From a virus: a stretch of 25,782 nt of DNA. This document shows, in pieces, positions 3,109 through 14,737 of this stretch; within the stretch, counting starts at the first letter, position 1; each line of letters starts with the position of its first letter. The notes under the pieces were generated by a model. It searched no databases and had not been told where the DNA came from. It was given only the letters and a program-made list of their open reading frames with translations. A program made the translations under genes and the position numbers. The stretch lies in IMG/VR virus record IMGVR_UViG_3300025630_000051, positions 1 through 25,782 of that record. One strand, given 5' to 3'.

Positions 3109-5712
3109 CTACCCACCTAAGTTCTGCGTAAAGCTGACATTTGTGCTTGATGTTGAACTACTAAACCATAATTCATTTAGATAGTTGAAAAACGCTTCAA
3201 TGTTAGTATCACGTCTTACATTGCCTCCGCCTATGTCATATTGATATCCGTTTGGATATGCTTGTTTGAATTCATATAAATTACTGCCGTCTGCAAATTC
3301 CATTAGTGCTACTTCTGTTTCTTTTAACCATTTAACACTTATAAACGCATTTTTTGATCTAGGATAAAAAGCATAATCAATTGGATGATATAAACCTGTT
3401 GCATAATCTTGTCTTGTTCTTATGTTTAGATAAGGATTGTTTACTCCACCTATGTTACTATCTCTAAGAGCAAGTTTTGCTGTGTTTATAACTTGTCCTG
3501 TTGTCTTGTCAATGTGTTCTACTAAGAAATGTGTTATAACACTATCTCTTGGCATGTTCAGTGTCATTAGATAATTGTTACTGCCTCTTTTTGCATGTCC
3601 GTAGATATCTCTATTGATCCTTGCCCAATCATATGATTTGAAGTTTGTTAATTTTTGTAAATCTGTTGAAACGCTGTCATTTAGAATGTAAGGAAATCCA
3701 TCAGGTGTTTCTCCACTGCTGTCTATTTGTGTGCCACCTCTTGGAGGAACACTTGGTGTAGTAAAAGGTGGATAGTAAGTAAGTCCACTGTCACCTGTTG
3801 CAAAATAACCTAAGGAACTTACATCTAGAGCTGTGCGAACTGCATCTTTTCTTGTGGTTCCATTTACATTTATAGCAGGTAGTCTTGCGCCTGTCTGTGG
3901 ATCTCTAGGACCATCTCTACCTACGTTGCCTCTATATGCAAGATACACAATAGCATCACCATATGCCGCTTGTGATATACCAGGCACATAAGGTTGAATA
4001 TAAAATTTTGTAAAGTCTTCAAATTTTGTAATTTTTGTAAGTGGTGTATCAAAACTTGGTGGTAATTCAAACGGAACACCTGCACTATCAATGTCTGGAT
4101 CCAAAGGAGGAAACAAACCTAATGCGTTTTCTGGTAATTCTCTTACATAAGGTATAACTGTAAATTCATCTGGTCTATATAAACTAGGTGGTATTTCAAT
4201 TTGTTCACCTTGCACGAAAGGATATACTGTTGCATCATGTTCTACTGCTTCAATACCTATATTGCCATCTGTAAGCAATTTCATACCTATCACTCTAAAT
4301 GTTTGTAGATTTAGATCCAATACTGTGTCTGTTACTCTAATGATATCACCAACTTCTACATCCAACAGTTCTTGTGTGCCTGTAAATTCAATTGAACGTT
4401 GACTTCTTGACTTTTTGTAAATCATTTGTGCCAAGTCTTGTGCTATACTAGGATTGGTAATTGTGTGAAAAGTAAATTCGCCTGATAGCTCTTCTTCTTT
4501 GTCAATAGTTTTATCACCATCTACTCTGTATACTTCTTGTTGGTTTGTAAATTCTAAATCAGGGTTGACATAGTTTACAATCACTTGGTTAAATTTTGAA
4601 CGTTTACGTTCGCCATTCATTGTGATGCCACCAATAACATTTTTAGATGTTACATCATACGCAACGGTTACAGTTGCTGAAGTTATGTCAGTTGCGTTAC
4701 CGCCATCTTCTACTTTTAGTTTGTATCTACCTTGTGAATAAGGCATTGTGCCTCTAGCACCTGCCAATAATATTTTTGTGTTTTCTATAACTTTGGCACC
4801 TGTGTTTACCACAGCATTCATAGTTAGAGCTCTACCTTGTTGTGTGCTACTGTAGTTGACCTGCTGTTCAAACTTGTCTGCGGCAATCCTAAAACTGCCA
4901 CCATGTATTTTAGCAGTTGAAATACCACAACCATATCTTGGGTTTTCTAAATAATCTAACAAACAGTTGGCAGGATTGAAACTGTATTTTGCGCCACTTT
5001 GTCTGCTGGCATATGTGCCACTTATCAATGATACTGTGCTACCGTGTGCTCTTACGTCATATACTTTTTTACCAAACACATCAAACTTAACATTAGGTAT
5101 ACCACCTGCAAATGGATTGTTGTCTGCGTCTTCTTGTGTTTTAACTTCTTTCCATTCAAAACGCATCACAGCATAAGCAAGTCCTGGTAATGCTCTTGGT
5201 TTCTTTGGCCATGTTGCTGATTCGTTTGCTAACTTACTTTGTCCTTGGTTATCTTCTCCATAGAAGAATTCCATTTTGACTCTGCCTTTGTATCTACCAC
5301 TGTCAACATTGTGTAAGGCATTGATTGCATAGATACCGCCTGCTGGTCCTGGCAATTCAATGTCGTTAATTAGTATTCTACCTACACCTTGTATAGGTCC
5401 TTCACATAGTGCATACACAACATAAAGATATCTGTTGGTTTCACCATTTGTTTCTGAAAATATGTTTATACCACCTGTGCGTCTAAATCCGTATACAACA
5501 GGAATAGGATTGTTTGTGCCTTGTCTTGTTATAACTATGCCTTGTGCTTGTTCTCCTGGATCTCCTACATCTGGTGTGTCAAATGCACCCATTGGATTCA
5601 AAACAAATCCTACAACATCACCAACAAAGTCTACCACAGCTTTGACAACGCCTACGACAGCTTTGACAATACCTTTTACAATACCTGTGATTGCTTTTAC
5701 TACTCCGCCCAT
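3109..5712 (-). CDS. Tail tip / host-specificity protein, lambda J-like, 867 aa
   Basis: The central tip protein that usually contacts the receptor in siphoviruses. The N-terminus (about 3-37) is a hydrophobic, Val/Lys repetitive stretch, typical of J-like proteins. The tip core follows: PIPVVYGFRRTGG, then a long beta-rich region including CEGPIQGVGRILINDIELPG (about 104-123), as in the J/phage-tail_3 family. Later parts resemble fibronectin-like and distal domains. Its place after the tape measure and two hub proteins matches the lambda order H-M-L-K-I-J, although no NlpC/P60 (K) protein is present. It contains one DSAG (4078-4089). It overlaps the upstream GNAT gene by 13 bases. The exact receptor-binding part is unknown. 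Confidence 0.85.
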   Translation of the reverse strand: MGGVVKAITGIVKGIVKAVVGVVKAVVDFVGDVVGFVLNPMGAFDTPDVGDPGEQAQGIVITRQGTNNPIPVVYGFRRTGGINIFSETNGETNRYLYVVYALCEGPIQGVGRILINDIELPGPAGGIYAINALHNVDSGRYKGRVKMEFFYGEDNQGQSKLANESATWPKKPRALPGLAYAVMRFEWKEVKTQEDADNNPFAGGIPNVKFDVFGKKVYDVRAHGSTVSLISGTYASRQSGAKYSFNPANCLLDYLENPRYGCGISTAKIHGGSFRIAADKFEQQVNYSSTQQGRALTMNAVVNTGAKVIENTKILLAGARGTMPYSQGRYKLKVEDGGNATDITSATVTVAYDVTSKNVIGGITMNGERKRSKFNQVIVNYVNPDLEFTNQQEVYRVDGDKTIDKEEELSGEFTFHTITNPSIAQDLAQMIYKKSRSQRSIEFTGTQELLDVEVGDIIRVTDTVLDLNLQTFRVIGMKLLTDGNIGIEAVEHDATVYPFVQGEQIEIPPSLYRPDEFTVIPYVRELPENALGLFPPLDPDIDSAGVPFELPPSFDTPLTKITKFEDFTKFYIQPYVPGISQAAYGDAIVYLAYRGNVGRDGPRDPQTGARLPAINVNGTTRKDAVRTALDVSSLGYFATGDSGLTYYPPFTTPSVPPRGGTQIDSSGETPDGFPYILNDSVSTDLQKLTNFKSYDWARINRDIYGHAKRGSNNYLMTLNMPRDSVITHFLVEHIDKTTGQVINTAKLALRDSNIGGVNNPYLNIRTRQDYATGLYHPIDYAFYPRSKNAFISVKWLKETEVALMEFADGSNLYEFKQAYPNGYQYDIGGGNVRRDTNIEAFFNYLNELWFSSSTSSTNVSFTQNLGG

Positions 5713-6194
5713 GAATCTCTCCCTAGTGGTTTGATATAATGATATCCAACTTCTTTCATTTGACCTCTTTTGAAAAAATAATCACGAGCTTTGTCTACAT
5801 ACTGTTCTTGGCATGCCCATTCATTTGTGTATGCCATAACACTTGCCTGCATAAACAGACAGTTGTTGTCTAAGAACCATGTTTCCATTCTAGCAAATAA
5901 ATCATCTAACAATGTTTTATTTCTTACACTAGGATCAATAAAAATATACAGCAATTCACCATAGAGTTTAGCGTTATAAAATTTTTCGTGTATGGCACCA
6001 ATTGCATAACCTACAAAACGATTATTTTGTTCTGCTACAAATATTTGATAGTTTGTTTGTATCAACATTTCTCTTAGTTGCTTTCTAAGATATGTTCTAT
6101 TGATAGCATCATGATCCATACCACTGTCTTTTGAATGTAGTAGTGTAAGATCTACAAACTTTTCTAATTCTTCTGGTGCAATTGGTCTAATCAT
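5700..6194 (-). CDS. GNAT-family N-acetyltransferase, 164 aa
   Basis: The fold pattern is GNAT: an N-terminal MIRPIAPEELEKFVDL strand-helix, a central FVAEQNNRFVGYAIGAI strand pair, then LLYIFIDPSVRNKTLLDDLF, which corresponds to motif A with a degenerate R-x-x-x-G/A acetyl-CoA loop. Length is normal for the family. It presumably transfers an acetyl group from acetyl-CoA to an amine, but the substrate is unknown. It is coupled by ATGA to the hub gene before it and overlaps the tail tip gene after it. It therefore occupies the slot where lambda-like phages carry K and I, and modification of a virion or host surface component is a reasonable guess. Confidence 0.8.
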   Translation of the reverse strand: MIRPIAPEELEKFVDLTLLHSKDSGMDHDAINRTYLRKQLREMLIQTNYQIFVAEQNNRFVGYAIGAIHEKFYNAKLYGELLYIFIDPSVRNKTLLDDLFARMETWFLDNNCLFMQASVMAYTNEWACQEQYVDKARDYFFKRGQMKEVGYHYIKPLGRDSWAE

Positions 6195-6781: not shown

Positions 6782-7440
6782 TAAATTGTCTCTTCTACGT
6801 CTATCTCGTATGCAATTAGGTTGTCAGTTCTGTAGTTAAATTCTTGAACATCTCCAGACATCATCATTCTAAAAGGCACATTGTTGGTTGTTACTGCTTC
6901 TTCATCTGCTAGAGCTTCTACTAATCCTGGTTGGATGTTTAGTGTAGCAAGTCCACCTGAGTCAGTGTTGATATCAGTAGTTACCATATAAACTTTTGTA
7001 TGGTTTGCAAAGCGAACTACATCTCCTGCTTTCAATAAAACTTGATCGCCTAATTGTGTTGAAGCACTATCAGGGAATGTTGTGATTGCAATAGTTGTAT
7101 CTCCTGCACTATGAGCTCCTTCTACAAATACTCTACCATTTATAATGTCTGCTATACTGGCGCCTGTTGTGATGTCTTTTGCTTGTGATTCACTTACACC
7201 TGGTATAACAATATCAAATTCATTTAGAGGTCCTTGTGTCTGTGCCATAAATCCTTGTATAGGTCTAAATTCACCTAAGTTCATAACAGGAAACGCTAAT
7301 GTGCCACTCCATAATGTTGTTGAATTTGTAGCTCTGATAGTTCTACCACTTGCCGCTCTTGTAATTTTTGTTTGTGTGTTCATCTTAAAATTAACAGCGT
7401 TAAATCCTGGTGAACTTGGAAACGTTCCTATATATGCCAT
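6781..7440 (-). CDS. Distal tail-type protein, 219 aa
   Basis: The N-terminus (MAYIGTFPSSPGFNAVNFKM, then LWSGTLAFPVMNLGEFRPIQGF) is typical of marine phage tail proteins encoded right after the tape measure, comparable in place to lambda M. The remainder is beta-rich: IADIINGRVFVEGAHSAGDT, a strand-rich section around residue 130 and a C-terminal NLIAYEIDVEET. HSAG (near 7100) and DSAS (7060-7071) occur in predicted turns. It overlaps the tape measure stop by one base. It probably forms a ring at the tail end, but no specific family is assigned with certainty. Confidence 0.65.
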   Translation of the reverse strand: MAYIGTFPSSPGFNAVNFKMNTQTKITRAASGRTIRATNSTTLWSGTLAFPVMNLGEFRPIQGFMAQTQGPLNEFDIVIPGVSESQAKDITTGASIADIINGRVFVEGAHSAGDTTIAITTFPDSASTQLGDQVLLKAGDVVRFANHTKVYMVTTDINTDSGGLATLNIQPGLVEALADEEAVTTNNVPFRMMMSGDVQEFNYRTDNLIAYEIDVEETI

Positions 7441-9947
7441 TACACTATACCTCTTCTTCCTTTACTTTGCATCGCTTGGTTAATAATACCTGTTATAGTT
7501 CCGCGACGTTCTAATAACAGTTCGTCCATACCTCTAGCATCAACTGTATTGATAGTAAAGTTAACATTTACATTATCACCTCTGCCGCCTAGTCCATTAA
7601 CTGCTTCAGCTACTTCTCTTGGAATAACTGTGCTTGGTTGTTTAGGAACAATAAGTTCTGGCCCATCTTCTCCAACAATAGTGCCTTGGCCTAGTGTTAG
7701 ATTACCACCACGTTGTCTACCTGTGTATTGTTGACTTCTAATTGCACTAACCTGTGCCAAACCACTTGCTACCACTGCCGCGGCCGCAATAAAGTTGAAC
7801 GGTGGTGGATAAGTTGCTAATGCTTTTGTGGCACCCATATAAGTGTTCATAATAGCGTTGGCAATGTTAAATGCTTTTGCCGCCTGGAACGCCTGTTTGT
7901 TCATTTGTCCTAGACTGTTGAACATGTCAGTTGCTTGTCCAATTGCAAATTGTGTTTTTTCTAATTCTGATTTCTTTTCAAATTCTATTCTGTCGCCAGT
8001 TATTTTTTGTTGACGTTCTTCAGCACCTTTTTTCTGTAAGAAGTTTTTCTGATCCGCACTTAAGATTGCATCATTGGCATTCAATGTTGCATTGATCTGC
8101 TTCAACATGTTTTCTTCAAATTTGGCAGTTGTCGCGTCGTTTTGTTCTTGTATCAGTTCATTTAATTTTTTGTTAGAAGCAAGTTTTAATGCATCAAACT
8201 CTTGTTGAGTAAGCAATTCGTTTTCTAGAGCTTCGCTGAATATTTTGAAGTTGTCTTGTTGTTGTTTTTTGAATATTTCTACAGTTGTAAATCTATATTC
8301 ATCATAACTTTTTATTAGGTTCTGTAATTTTGTTTTGAATTCTTTTGTTGCACCTGCCGCCTTGTCAAAAGAACTTGCTACGTCTTTGTTGCCACCTGTA
8401 ATTTCTGCAAGTTTAAGGATTTGATCTTTGTAAGCAGGTATACCTTTTATTCTTGTGTTGTATTCATCTCTTGCGGCCTGTTCTGCTTTATCATAACTAA
8501 CACCTGCGTCAACATACGCCTGTGTCAACATTTCTAAAACATCAGCACCTTCTGCCTGTGCTCTTTTTATAACATCTAGACTGTTTACATATTCCAGACC
8601 TGAGTCTATTGTTTCTGTAATTGCACCTGACACGGCGTTGAATGCTTCAACGGCAGTATTGCCTACTGATACCCTTATGTCTTCACTTGTGCTTTCAATA
8701 ATTTTACCAAGGCCTACAAATTCACTAACTGAGTTGATGCCTCTAATAACACCATTTACAAAACTGTCAAATACACCTGTTAGTTTTTCAATAACTTTTG
8801 CAAAGACGTCTTTTAAGAAAGTTCCTACTGCGGAGAATACTTCTCCTACTTTGTTCATTACAGCAAATATCTGTGATAGTGTCTTACCTAGTCCATTCTC
8901 CATACTTAGGAATGTGATAACACTTGCGGCCGCTACTGCCAACAGTCCAATAGGATTTCTTGCCATTGCGAGTGTTAATGCTTTGACGCCATTTGTAACA
9001 CCTTTTAGAACTGCAATCAATCCTGCGCCACCTAGTGCCGCCGCCGCTATCTTGGCACCTTTGATAAACATACCCATATCAAAGTTTGATTCTCTAAGAA
9101 ACTTTGTAAATTTGAAAATTGCAAAACCTAACTTGTCACCTATGATAGTTGCAAGTGGTAGTGCTCTTTCTAACATTTTGTTGAACACATTTACAAGCTC
9201 TGTCATAGCAGGACCAACTCCACCTTGTCCTATTGCATCTTGAACGTTTTTGAATCCAATCTGCATGTTTGACAATGCTGTTGATAAGTTGTTTAATCTT
9301 GCTTCTGTGGCACCACCAAATCTTTCTTTGATACCATTACCTAGTGCCTCAATAATTTTAGTTGTGTTGCCTGCTTCTTTTGAAAACTTACCTAGTTCAC
9401 TTCTTGATACACCTAATTTTTCTTTTAGGATATCATAAACAGGCAAACCTCTATCAGCAAGTCTATCCAAGTCCATAAGTTCAACAGTTTGTGATTGAAG
9501 TGATCTTGTATAGAAGTCAGTGATAGCAGTCAACGAACCTAGTTGGTCCGTTGTAACCGCCGCGGCATCTGTAAATGTTGTAAGAAGCTCTTTGGTTGGA
9601 TCTATTCCGTTTGATTTTAGTTTAGTAAAGGCAACACTAAGTTCTTCAACGCCAAACTGTGTTTGTGTTGCAAATTCACTTACGAACTTGAATGCTTTTG
9701 TGCCTTCATTTAGACTGCCTGTTACACTTGATAGTGTAGTTCTTAGATCTTCAAATCTAGCAGTTGTGGCAATTATACCTCTTGCTAAATTTGCCGCACC
9801 TATACCACCAAGTGCCGCCACAGCGAGGCCCGCGACTTTGTTAACACTAAGAAGACTGCCTTCAACCTTTTTGATGCGATTGTCAATACCACGTAACGCA
9901 CCTTTGGTTTTATCTACGACTTTTACTTCTATCTGTTGTGTTGCCAT
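7440..9947 (-). CDS. Tail tape measure protein, 835 aa
   Basis: It sets tail length and occupies the tube lumen. It starts MATQQIEVKVVDKTKGALRG, then has a long helical part (FEDLRTTLSSVTGSLNEG, then LGSLTAITDFYTRSLQSQTV) typical of the TP901/Mu-like tape measure family. Hydrophobic segments lie at about 41-57 and 295-350, and long coiled coils at about 530-680. The C-terminal part (IVGEDGPELIVPKQPSTVIP) is a frequent tape-measure ending. At about 1.5 angstroms per residue, 835 residues would give a tail of roughly 125 nm. GGGAGG lies about 12 bases before the ATG. The start overlaps the frameshifted chaperone end (9910) by 38 bases. It has no DSAG, unlike the outer tail proteins. Confidence 0.92.
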   Translation of the reverse strand: MATQQIEVKVVDKTKGALRGIDNRIKKVEGSLLSVNKVAGLAVAALGGIGAANLARGIIATTARFEDLRTTLSSVTGSLNEGTKAFKFVSEFATQTQFGVEELSVAFTKLKSNGIDPTKELLTTFTDAAAVTTDQLGSLTAITDFYTRSLQSQTVELMDLDRLADRGLPVYDILKEKLGVSRSELGKFSKEAGNTTKIIEALGNGIKERFGGATEARLNNLSTALSNMQIGFKNVQDAIGQGGVGPAMTELVNVFNKMLERALPLATIIGDKLGFAIFKFTKFLRESNFDMGMFIKGAKIAAAALGGAGLIAVLKGVTNGVKALTLAMARNPIGLLAVAAASVITFLSMENGLGKTLSQIFAVMNKVGEVFSAVGTFLKDVFAKVIEKLTGVFDSFVNGVIRGINSVSEFVGLGKIIESTSEDIRVSVGNTAVEAFNAVSGAITETIDSGLEYVNSLDVIKRAQAEGADVLEMLTQAYVDAGVSYDKAEQAARDEYNTRIKGIPAYKDQILKLAEITGGNKDVASSFDKAAGATKEFKTKLQNLIKSYDEYRFTTVEIFKKQQQDNFKIFSEALENELLTQQEFDALKLASNKKLNELIQEQNDATTAKFEENMLKQINATLNANDAILSADQKNFLQKKGAEERQQKITGDRIEFEKKSELEKTQFAIGQATDMFNSLGQMNKQAFQAAKAFNIANAIMNTYMGATKALATYPPPFNFIAAAAVVASGLAQVSAIRSQQYTGRQRGGNLTLGQGTIVGEDGPELIVPKQPSTVIPREVAEAVNGLGGRGDNVNVNFTINTVDARGMDELLLERRGTITGIINQAMQSKGRRGIV

Positions 9948-10424
9948 TTTTTACGGCCTCCCTCTGTAACTTGAACCATTCATACCAAAGTTGTATTTCT
10001 AGGACGGATAGGTTCATAACTTCTTCTATGCTTTTATGGATCTCAGTTGCGATCCTCATTACAAGTTGAAGTTCTCCGTCCTCCTTTAGTTTTTTCCTAC
10101 GTCCTGATAATCAGTCGTAGCTGAATTTAATTCAGCACATACTTTTAGCAATACGGCAGGGTCTGCTTCATTCATAAGTTTTGTTCTGTCAAACTTTGTA
10201 AACAATGGATCACCTTCTGGTCCCAATGCTTTTTGAATTAGACTTTCAACCAATGCGTCAACCATTTTACCTGATTGTTGAAGTTCAATAATTTTAGCTT
10301 CAACGGCAAATGGATATGTGCCTTTGTAGTAGATATCAATTTTCCATTCTTCTACTGTCATTTTTTGTAATCCACCACTGAGCTTGCTTTTGTAGTGGGA
10401 TGCAATGTTATTCATTACGCTCAT
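9910..10424 (-). CDS. Tail assembly chaperone, -1 frameshift product (gpGT-like), about 171 aa
   Basis: The zero-frame chaperone ends directly after a slippery A AAA AAC (10095-10089). Slipping back one base lets translation continue 59 codons, from CTA at 10089-10087 to a TAA at 9912-9910. The added part reads LKEDGELQLVMRI...IHKSIEEVMNLSV, then LWYEWFKLQRE, and resembles the helical T domain of lambda gpGT, which recruits tail tube protein to the tape measure. It ends inside the start of the tape measure gene, just as in lambda. The extension is open with a sensible composition, although it lies on bases that would otherwise be a 138-base gap. Confidence 0.85.
10086..10424 (-). CDS. Tail assembly chaperone, short product (gpG-like), 112 aa
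   Basis: An unshifted product ending at the TAA at 10088-10086. It is helical and charged: the N-terminal part holds MTVEEWKIDIYYKGTYPFAV, and the C-terminal part TDYQDVGKN leads into the slippery site. It lies between the gp10-like/tube genes and the tape measure, the standard place for gpG. GGAGATATAA precedes the ATG, which overlaps the stop of the previous gene. In lambda, G is made in large excess over GT. The same ratio is expected here but cannot be seen in the sequence. Confidence 0.85.
   Translation of the reverse strand: MSVMNNIASHYKSKLSGGLQKMTVEEWKIDIYYKGTYPFAVEAKIIELQQSGKMVDALVESLIQKALGPEGDPLFTKFDRTKLMNEADPAVLLKVCAELNSATTDYQDVGKN
10089..10095 (-). promoter_or_regulatory. A AAA AAC slippery heptamer for -1 frameshifting
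   Basis: The zero-frame codons are GGA AAA AAC TAA, so the heptamer A AAA AAC is in phase with X XXY YYZ and sits right before the stop codon. This is among the most efficient known bacterial -1 slippery sites. A GGAGG-like stretch follows at once (10080-10086), but a stimulatory hairpin is not obvious by eye. Confidence 0.85.
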
Positions 10425-10714
10425 TTATATCTCCTTTGTGATATCTCCCTAACGGTAGGTCCTAGAATACCATTAGGTGCTTGTTTAGAACGGCCTTGCT
10501 CTAGGTAATTTATATGACGGGAACGGTTGACAATACGTTTATTTTCAAACGTATTTTCAAGGCGCCAACCGCGTCTTGCTAATCCCGTGTCAATTGGTGT
10601 ATTCTTGCGAGCTACATCCAAAGTATCTTGCGCCATCCTATCTATAATACGGTCTTTTTCTCGTTCAAGTCCGCTCATAGCTTTTTTAGTGCCCTGAATC
10701 CTAACCTCAATCAT
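10421..10714 (-). CDS. HK97 gp10-like head-tail joining/tail component, 97 aa
   Basis: The protein has the features of the HK97-gp10 family: ARKNTPIDTGLARRGWRLEN in the middle (about 35-54) and an H-[IY]-x-x-[YL]-E-x-G module (HINYLEQG, about 68-75). Length is a little short for the family, which often reaches 110-150 residues. It probably acts at the head-tail joint or tail completion step. Its ATG at 10714 lies 3 bases after the tail tube stop, and its own stop overlaps the chaperone start. No missing key residue is apparent. Confidence 0.8.
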   Translation of the reverse strand: MIEVRIQGTKKAMSGLEREKDRIIDRMAQDTLDVARKNTPIDTGLARRGWRLENTFENKRIVNRSRHINYLEQGRSKQAPNGILGPTVREISQRRYK

Positions 10715-10717
10715 AAT

Positions 10718-11131
10718 CTATGAAGTATAGTCTACGATTTCTAGTGCTCCAGATCCCTGGAAGTTGACTGTTGCAGTTACAAGGTCATCAAAACTTGATG
10801 TTCTTGAAATGCTTGTTACCAACACATTGCCTGCAAGTTTTTTACCTGCCGCGTTGCTTGGATAGAACTCAGCTCTTAGAGTTGTATCAGCATCTGGATT
10901 GTTATGTCCTAATGCTAATTGTGCCGCTGTATCATCATACAAGATCTCCATTGATCCTGTAAACTGATGTAAACCAGCTTTGTAAGTTCTTGCCGCATCG
11001 CCCATGACTGTGTCTTCAACCACATCTTTAGTGTGTTCAACTGTCCAGGAACGAACTTCAGCAATAGTAGTTTGGCCTGCACTATCTGCTCCGATAGATA
11101 CTTGACCGTTTTCACCTGTGTATGTTGCCAT
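10718..11131 (-). CDS. Major tail tube protein, 137 aa
   Basis: The repeating subunit of the tail tube. The N-terminus (MATYTGENGQVSIG, then TTIAEVRSWTVEHTKDVVED, then TVMGDAARTYKAGLHQFTGS) is characteristic of short tube proteins of the 130-145 residue class in marine siphoviruses. The fold would be the beta-sandwich shared with lambda gpV. A DSAG (11075-11086, residues about 16-19) sits between QVSIG and TTIAEV, where related proteins usually have a short turn. GGAGAAATAAACT precedes the ATG at 11131. It is upstream of gp10-like, chaperone and tape measure genes, the standard order. Confidence 0.85.
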   Translation of the reverse strand: MATYTGENGQVSIGADSAGQTTIAEVRSWTVEHTKDVVEDTVMGDAARTYKAGLHQFTGSMEILYDDTAAQLALGHNNPDADTTLRAEFYPSNAAGKKLAGNVLVTSISRTSSFDDLVTATVNFQGSGALEIVDYTS

Positions 11132-14251: not shown

Positions 14252-14737
14252 TTACAGACATTGCACATACCAGATGCCATTATTCGTAGTTTTTACGGTA
14301 TCAAAATGTTTTTCAATACCTGCCCTCACGCTCTTCCAATCGTAGTCGTGACCCATTACATATCCACCTGGTTTGACTTTTGTCTTATAGGTTTCAATAT
14401 CTCTAGATACGCCTTGTTCGCTGTGATCCGCATCAATAAAAACAAAGTCAAGTGTAGAGTCTTGTATTTGATCTGCTACTTCTGTAGTCTTGCCTTTGAT
14501 AAGTTTACAGCGGTCACCAAACTTTTTTGTTTTGTGGCGAACTTCGCGTTCATTTTGTTTGTGATTCCATTTAGTCCATTTGCCCATACTATCCCAAGCA
14601 TCTATACCTGTCATATGTAACTGTGGACATGTTTCTAAAAGGTGTGTAATAGTTTTACCTTTCCATACACCTAATTCAGCGCCTGTTGAAAGGTCTTTTT
14701 CTTTTATAAATTTTTCTAAGGTATCCCAACGTGCCAT
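14252..14737 (-). CDS. Class I SAM-dependent methyltransferase, 161 aa
   Basis: The Rossmann-fold methyltransferase signs are clear: motif I GAELGVWKGKT (about 19-29), DFVFIDADHSEQGV (about 96-109) and PGGYVMGHDYDW (about 124-135). The pattern matches the Methyltransf_24 group, which includes enzymes acting on sugars, small molecules and proteins. It has no DNA methyltransferase D/N-PP-Y motif, so DNA is an unlikely substrate. Length is normal for the core fold. It is coupled by TAATG to the membrane peptide gene and lies between portal and scaffold. A role in modifying virion or host surface components is inferred, not shown. Confidence 0.82.
   Translation of the reverse strand: MARWDTLEKFIKEKDLSTGAELGVWKGKTITHLLETCPQLHMTGIDAWDSMGKWTKWNHKQNEREVRHKTKKFGDRCKLIKGKTTEVADQIQDSTLDFVFIDADHSEQGVSRDIETYKTKVKPGGYVMGHDYDWKSVRAGIEKHFDTVKTTNNGIWYVQCL

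Follow-up and report, generated by a model that had tools for sequence, protein, structure and literature searches.

The DNA analyzed here (the window) comprises 25,782 nt of the IMG/VR virus record IMGVR_UViG_3300025630_000051, from a marine phage whose nearest named relatives are Phage DSL-LC06 and the pelagiphages HTVC202P, HTVC112P and HTVC026P; a search of GTDB genomes for prophages and hosts returned a single weak relative (L172). All parts of the locus described below lie on the minus strand. Gene G (10086..10424), which was recognized from its ORF, its PHROG family and a fold match and has a zero-frame product of 112 aa, is located between the genes for the major tail protein (10718..11131, minus strand; PHROG major tail protein, E 4e-12; Pfam Phage_tail_2) and the tape measure protein (7440..9947, minus strand; PHROG tape measure, E 4e-40; Pfam TMP_3, E 1e-15), the placement that characterizes gpG/gpGT genes. 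An HK97-gp10-like protein (10421-10714) is encoded between the major tail protein and G, and the window also holds portal, terminase, scaffold, capsid, distal tail and hub genes. The G frame ends in GGA AAA AAC TAA, which puts a slippery heptamer, A_AAA_AAC (10089..10095), in phase and directly before the zero-frame stop (10086..10088). The −1 frame is open for 59 codons, from CTA (10089) to 9913, and closes with a TAA at 9912..9910; this T extension (9910..10089; 59 aa plus stop) overlaps the start of the tape measure gene at 9947. An earlier reading of the letters alone (the sequence-only reading) had proposed a chaperone frameshift at this site that fills a 138-base gap, and its account of the heptamer, its coordinates, its phase and the codon count proved correct, the distance from the G stop to the tape measure start being exactly 138 bases.

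We then asked how much of this could be coincidence. AAAAAAC is not enriched in the window (15 occurrences versus 13.2 expected), and by shuffling an open −1 frame of 59 codons has a chance probability of about 0.014. A scan of 36 candidate minus-strand ORFs turned up a single further heptamer that is in phase and has a long extension (TTTTTTC at 5778, toward the tail fibre frame). The heptamer and open frame alone make a weak case against chance, yet the comparison with relatives decides against it. Viral contigs were scanned with three queries (G, the G alignment, the major tail protein), and named phages were added; G and T occur together in 163 of the loci so collected, 119 of which are distinct. 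A homologous T domain was present in 163 of the 166 loci holding G, and 118 of the 119 distinct relatives have it in the −1 frame. A canonical heptamer is found at the stop or one codon before it in 117 of the 119: AAAAAAC directly precedes the stop in 88 and stands one codon earlier in 13, and elsewhere it is exchanged for GGGAAAC (6), AAAAAAA (6) or AAAAAAG (4). The shift site persists down to 23% G identity. The two features whose loss in close relatives would, by its own account, have spoken against the sequence-only reading, the heptamer and the open −1 frame, are retained together in 117 of the 119. In one locus, L005 (2995-3500), T is still in the −1 frame, with a longer G end and no canonical heptamer. 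The sole exception to the −1 frame is L052 (IMGVR_UViG_3300012920_002293), where the A run falls one base short of that in its relatives and T lies in the +1 frame; this is possibly a homopolymer sequencing error, or else a sign of run-length variation at the slippage site. Among 53 non-redundant close relatives the median dN/dS was 0.23 in the −1 frame, as against 0.83 and 2.10 in the other two frames, which shows that it is the −1 frame in which the extension is translated. The T extension is nevertheless left unannotated in the records of all four named relatives (DSL-LC06, HTVC202P, HTVC112P and HTVC026P), an example of how G-T extensions get missed in annotation.

The G family is recognizable at the level of profile and fold. 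PHROG 344 (tail assembly chaperone) was matched by 69 of 71 G members, with a best E of 2.3e-9; the window's own G protein reaches it at E 0.02 only and has no Pfam match. Structure models were built from alignments from which the rows of named phage records had been left out. Of the solved structures, 2OB9, the tail assembly chaperone of HK97, fits the G model (pLDDT 86) best (Z 10.5 and rmsd 2.9 over 100 residues; Foldseek E 8e-4; 12-17% sequence identity). The T extension is modeled as a small domain (pLDDT 83) with three predicted helices, at residues 5-17, 21-25 and 29-52, and both models match one chaperone of Rhodobacter phage RcRhea. By predicted fold and by family, G is a tail chaperone. 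The gpG/gpGT assignment agrees with the heptamer and its phase, the stop beside it, the open −1 frame, the tape measure and major tail genes nearby, the fold of a chaperone and the conservation among relatives, and we conclude from the comparison with the 119 distinct relatives that this is a real programmed −1 frameshift of the lambda kind, almost certainly one that makes a G/G-T tail assembly chaperone pair.

A codon-choice test across 55 relatives revealed strong synonymous constraint at the heptamer, four codons ahead of it (a Glu codon), just downstream of it (GAG GAC ACT) and about 80 nt downstream (AGT GTC CTA). A further strong cluster was seen where the end of T and the start of the tape measure gene overlap, and scattered single G codons were also above threshold. 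The two constrained downstream stretches are reverse complements (AGGACACT and AGTGTCCT). In the window both arms have changed together, to AGGACGGA (10075..10082, minus strand) and TCCGTCCT (10001..10008, minus strand), and in L021 and L022 both have changed yet again. The 5′ arm begins 6 nt after the heptamer, a distance that is fixed across the clade, and overlaps the GGAGG just after the slip site; the 3′ arm encodes part of an SVLE motif in the T domain. The loop that they close is about 60-66 nt long, 66 nt in the window. This helix is the only one predicted by RNAalifold from an ungapped alignment of 53 sequences, and the only conserved helix with covariation within 240 nt (−90 to +150) of those relatives; the same scan contained neither a pseudoknot nor a second conserved stem with covariation. 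Its positions pair in 92.2% of alignment cells, compared with 28-41% when the arms were slid by 1-3 columns. In 2000 synonymous shuffles, which preserve every protein and the codons of every column, neither the pairing (z 9.1) nor the number of double changes (z 8.3) was equaled. On a tree of the upstream G sequence, pairing was kept in 19 of 20 independent double changes, with 0-5 for the slid controls. The window's own RNA folds at −25.2 kcal/mol (z −3.3) with inner helices that are absent from the consensus, and at gathering threshold no curated Rfam family was matched in the window. The pattern of codon choice and paired substitution indicates that the helix is under dual selection, as RNA and as protein. 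We consider it very likely to be a frameshift stimulator, one that probably sets how often the slip happens. The sequence-only reading had suggested that the GGAGG may influence pausing; the idea that the stretch matters was broadly right, but it is better read as overlapping the 5′ arm of the conserved stem, and the Shine-Dalgarno (SD)-like element of this locus lies upstream, not downstream, of the slip site. A role for the GGAGG as the SD of a T start site was also considered and rejected, since the next ATG is 20 nt away and is not conserved.

The upstream element, CAGG in the window (10103..10106, minus strand) and GAGG in most relatives, was detected through codon choice and ends 7 nt before the heptamer. 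The constrained Glu codon at position −4 is GAG in 46 of 50 relatives against a background GAG usage of about 13% (p 4e-23). Of 55 relatives, 39 have an SD-like 4-mer that starts 12 nt before the AAA codon and 23 have one that starts 11 nt before it, where synonymous shuffles gave 5.4 and 4.0, respectively, with no comparable peak elsewhere in the 45 nt covered. The pairing energy with the 16S tail is likewise stronger than expected (−4.97 versus −2.30 ± 0.25). Several relatives have GAG without the following G, and the window itself is weaker, with CAGG. Spacings of 9-14 nt are reported to stimulate −1 shifting (PMC5009743). Given the 7-nt spacing here and the CAGG of the window, an SD mechanism is only likely, though selection on the motif is clear, and we lean toward a stimulatory function for it with less assurance than for the stem.

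In the mechanism that we propose, most ribosomes would terminate at the TAA that adjoins A_AAA_AAC, yielding gpG, and a minority would undergo a double-tRNA slip, in which both tRNAs re-pair one base back and reading continues with CTA AAG GAG. The slip would probably be boosted by the stem 6 nt downstream and perhaps by the SD-like GAGG 7 nt upstream. Slipped ribosomes would append the helical 59-aa T domain, giving a low-copy gpGT. By analogy with lambda, gpG would coat the tape measure protein, and the major tail protein would be recruited by the T domain of the scarce gpGT. In lambda the −1 frameshift occurs on G_GGA_AAG near the end of G (PMC5009743, PMC7618472) and gpG and gpGT are made at about 30:1 (PMC5009743); for HK97-like chaperone genes, frameshifting of 6-7% was measured in E. 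coli (PMC3711429). The present locus resembles lambda in the position of its gene between major tail protein and tape measure and in the presumably low-copy C-terminal T reached by a −1 shift. It differs in using A_AAA_AAC rather than G_GGA_AAG, in the stop directly after the heptamer in the window, in the conserved downstream stem and upstream SD-like motif, and in a protein similarity that is apparent at the profile or fold level only. The HK97-type chaperone (gp13, PDB 2OB9) is the closest solved fold to the G model at the low sequence identity given above. RcRhea shares several features with the locus: its heptamer also directly precedes the stop (GGGAAAC TGA), GGGAAACTGA is found at the junction, the chaperone adjoins the tape measure and is annotated as a two-piece join, and a similar T domain carries the same KS-x-xEVM / W motif. 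However, the RcRhea heptamer is GGGAAAC and no equally clear stem is present (best 7 bp). In the layout of its signals the locus is like E. coli dnaX and the IS3 family (IS911), with an A_AAA_AAx heptamer, an SD-like motif upstream and a stem a few nucleotides downstream. In contrast, dnaX has A_AAA_AAG, a simple stem-loop (PMC5009743) and, in the E. coli genome sequence, an SD 10 nt upstream, where the marine clade has a 7-nt gap and a stem around a loop of about 60-66 nt. The heptamer A_AAA_AAC shifts far less readily than A_AAA_AAG in E. coli (PMC5009743), so host context matters; this low tendency is consistent with dependence on stimulators, or else with a shift rate that need only be low.

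Relatives outside the clade show other arrangements. Outgroups with GGGAAAC or AAAAAAG have stems of their own that start 4-6 nt after the heptamer and have their far arm elsewhere; those of L024, L035/L037 and L009 have p values of 0.01-0.04 each, uncorrected, and those of the single outgroups L023 and L172 were not significant. In most of the pelagiphage loci (L008, L010, L027-L056) the G/T junction contains a run of 9-10 A, and no downstream stem was found in this poly-A group.

Covariation alone cannot reveal what a stem is for, and the frameshift could be real while the stem serves otherwise, by masking the SD-like GGAGG against internal initiation, by protecting the mRNA or by coupling translation of the tape measure to slipped ribosomes. 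The tape measure gene does begin just downstream of the stem, whose 5′ arm does overlap the GGAGG. We nonetheless regard such a role as unlikely: the spacing to the heptamer is constant across the clade, the outgroup stems of L024, L037 and L009 likewise begin 4-6 nt downstream of the heptamer, with a far arm that changes place, and the 5′ arm in most relatives is GAGGACACT, a poorer SD than that of the window. A stimulator of frameshifting remains our reading of the stem. The fused message might also arise from transcriptional slippage on the A run, without slippage by the ribosome. The pelagiphage relatives with 9-10 A and no stem, and the run shortened by one A in L052, are what such a process could leave behind, and at the pelagiphage poly-A loci we consider it possible. 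For the window it is highly improbable, since there are six A only, relatives carry GGGAAAC at the same place, and an RNA stem and SD-like motif at set distances suit slippage by the ribosome. That T is a separate gene with its own start, or is an untranslated remnant, we regard as scarcely credible. In the window an ATG stands at T codon 11, but this Met is found in 31 of 55 relatives only and no SD lies close upstream; an untranslated T is excluded by the dN/dS of 0.23, and the heptamer and its phase are conserved, against either version. Programmed −1 ribosomal frameshifting thus stays the preferred explanation for the locus.

Frameshifting in tail-chaperone genes is widespread among phages, and the G/GT system is well known. 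In a literature search that was made without the original survey of Xu, Hendrix and Duda (2004), no conserved stimulatory stem was described for tail-chaperone frameshifting, an absence that is not proof. The paired stimulators at this site look like an undescribed variant of the control signal in an ordinary member of a known system. We speculate, with slightly less than even confidence, that a large marine phage clade tunes its chaperone ratio via an RNA signal of two parts, contact with the anti-SD upstream and, within T, a covarying stem of long range, and that its pelagiphage cousins substitute a longer A run, so that exchangeable recoding mechanisms, possibly including transcriptional slippage, would reach the same protein ratio. 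The clade is deeply sampled and its helix is backed by many compensatory changes, beside sister lineages with other heptamers and with other stems or none; this comparison makes the setting of the gpG:gpGT ratio by phages directly testable.

Two further genes of the window were noted in passing. A methyltransferase (Pfam Methyltransf_24, E 2e-19) is encoded at 14252-14737 (minus strand) in the head module, between the scaffold and portal genes. A GNAT acetyltransferase gene (5700-6194, minus strand) lies within the tail module between the hub protein and a J-like fibre, and has an in-phase U_UUU_UUC (TTTTTTC, 5778..5772) 69 nt before its stop, which in principle would permit fusion to the fibre frame. 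Similar positions, directly ahead of a hub or tail protein, are taken by an acetyltransferase in DSL-LC06 and by an acyltransferase in the pelagiphages HTVC112P and HTVC026P.
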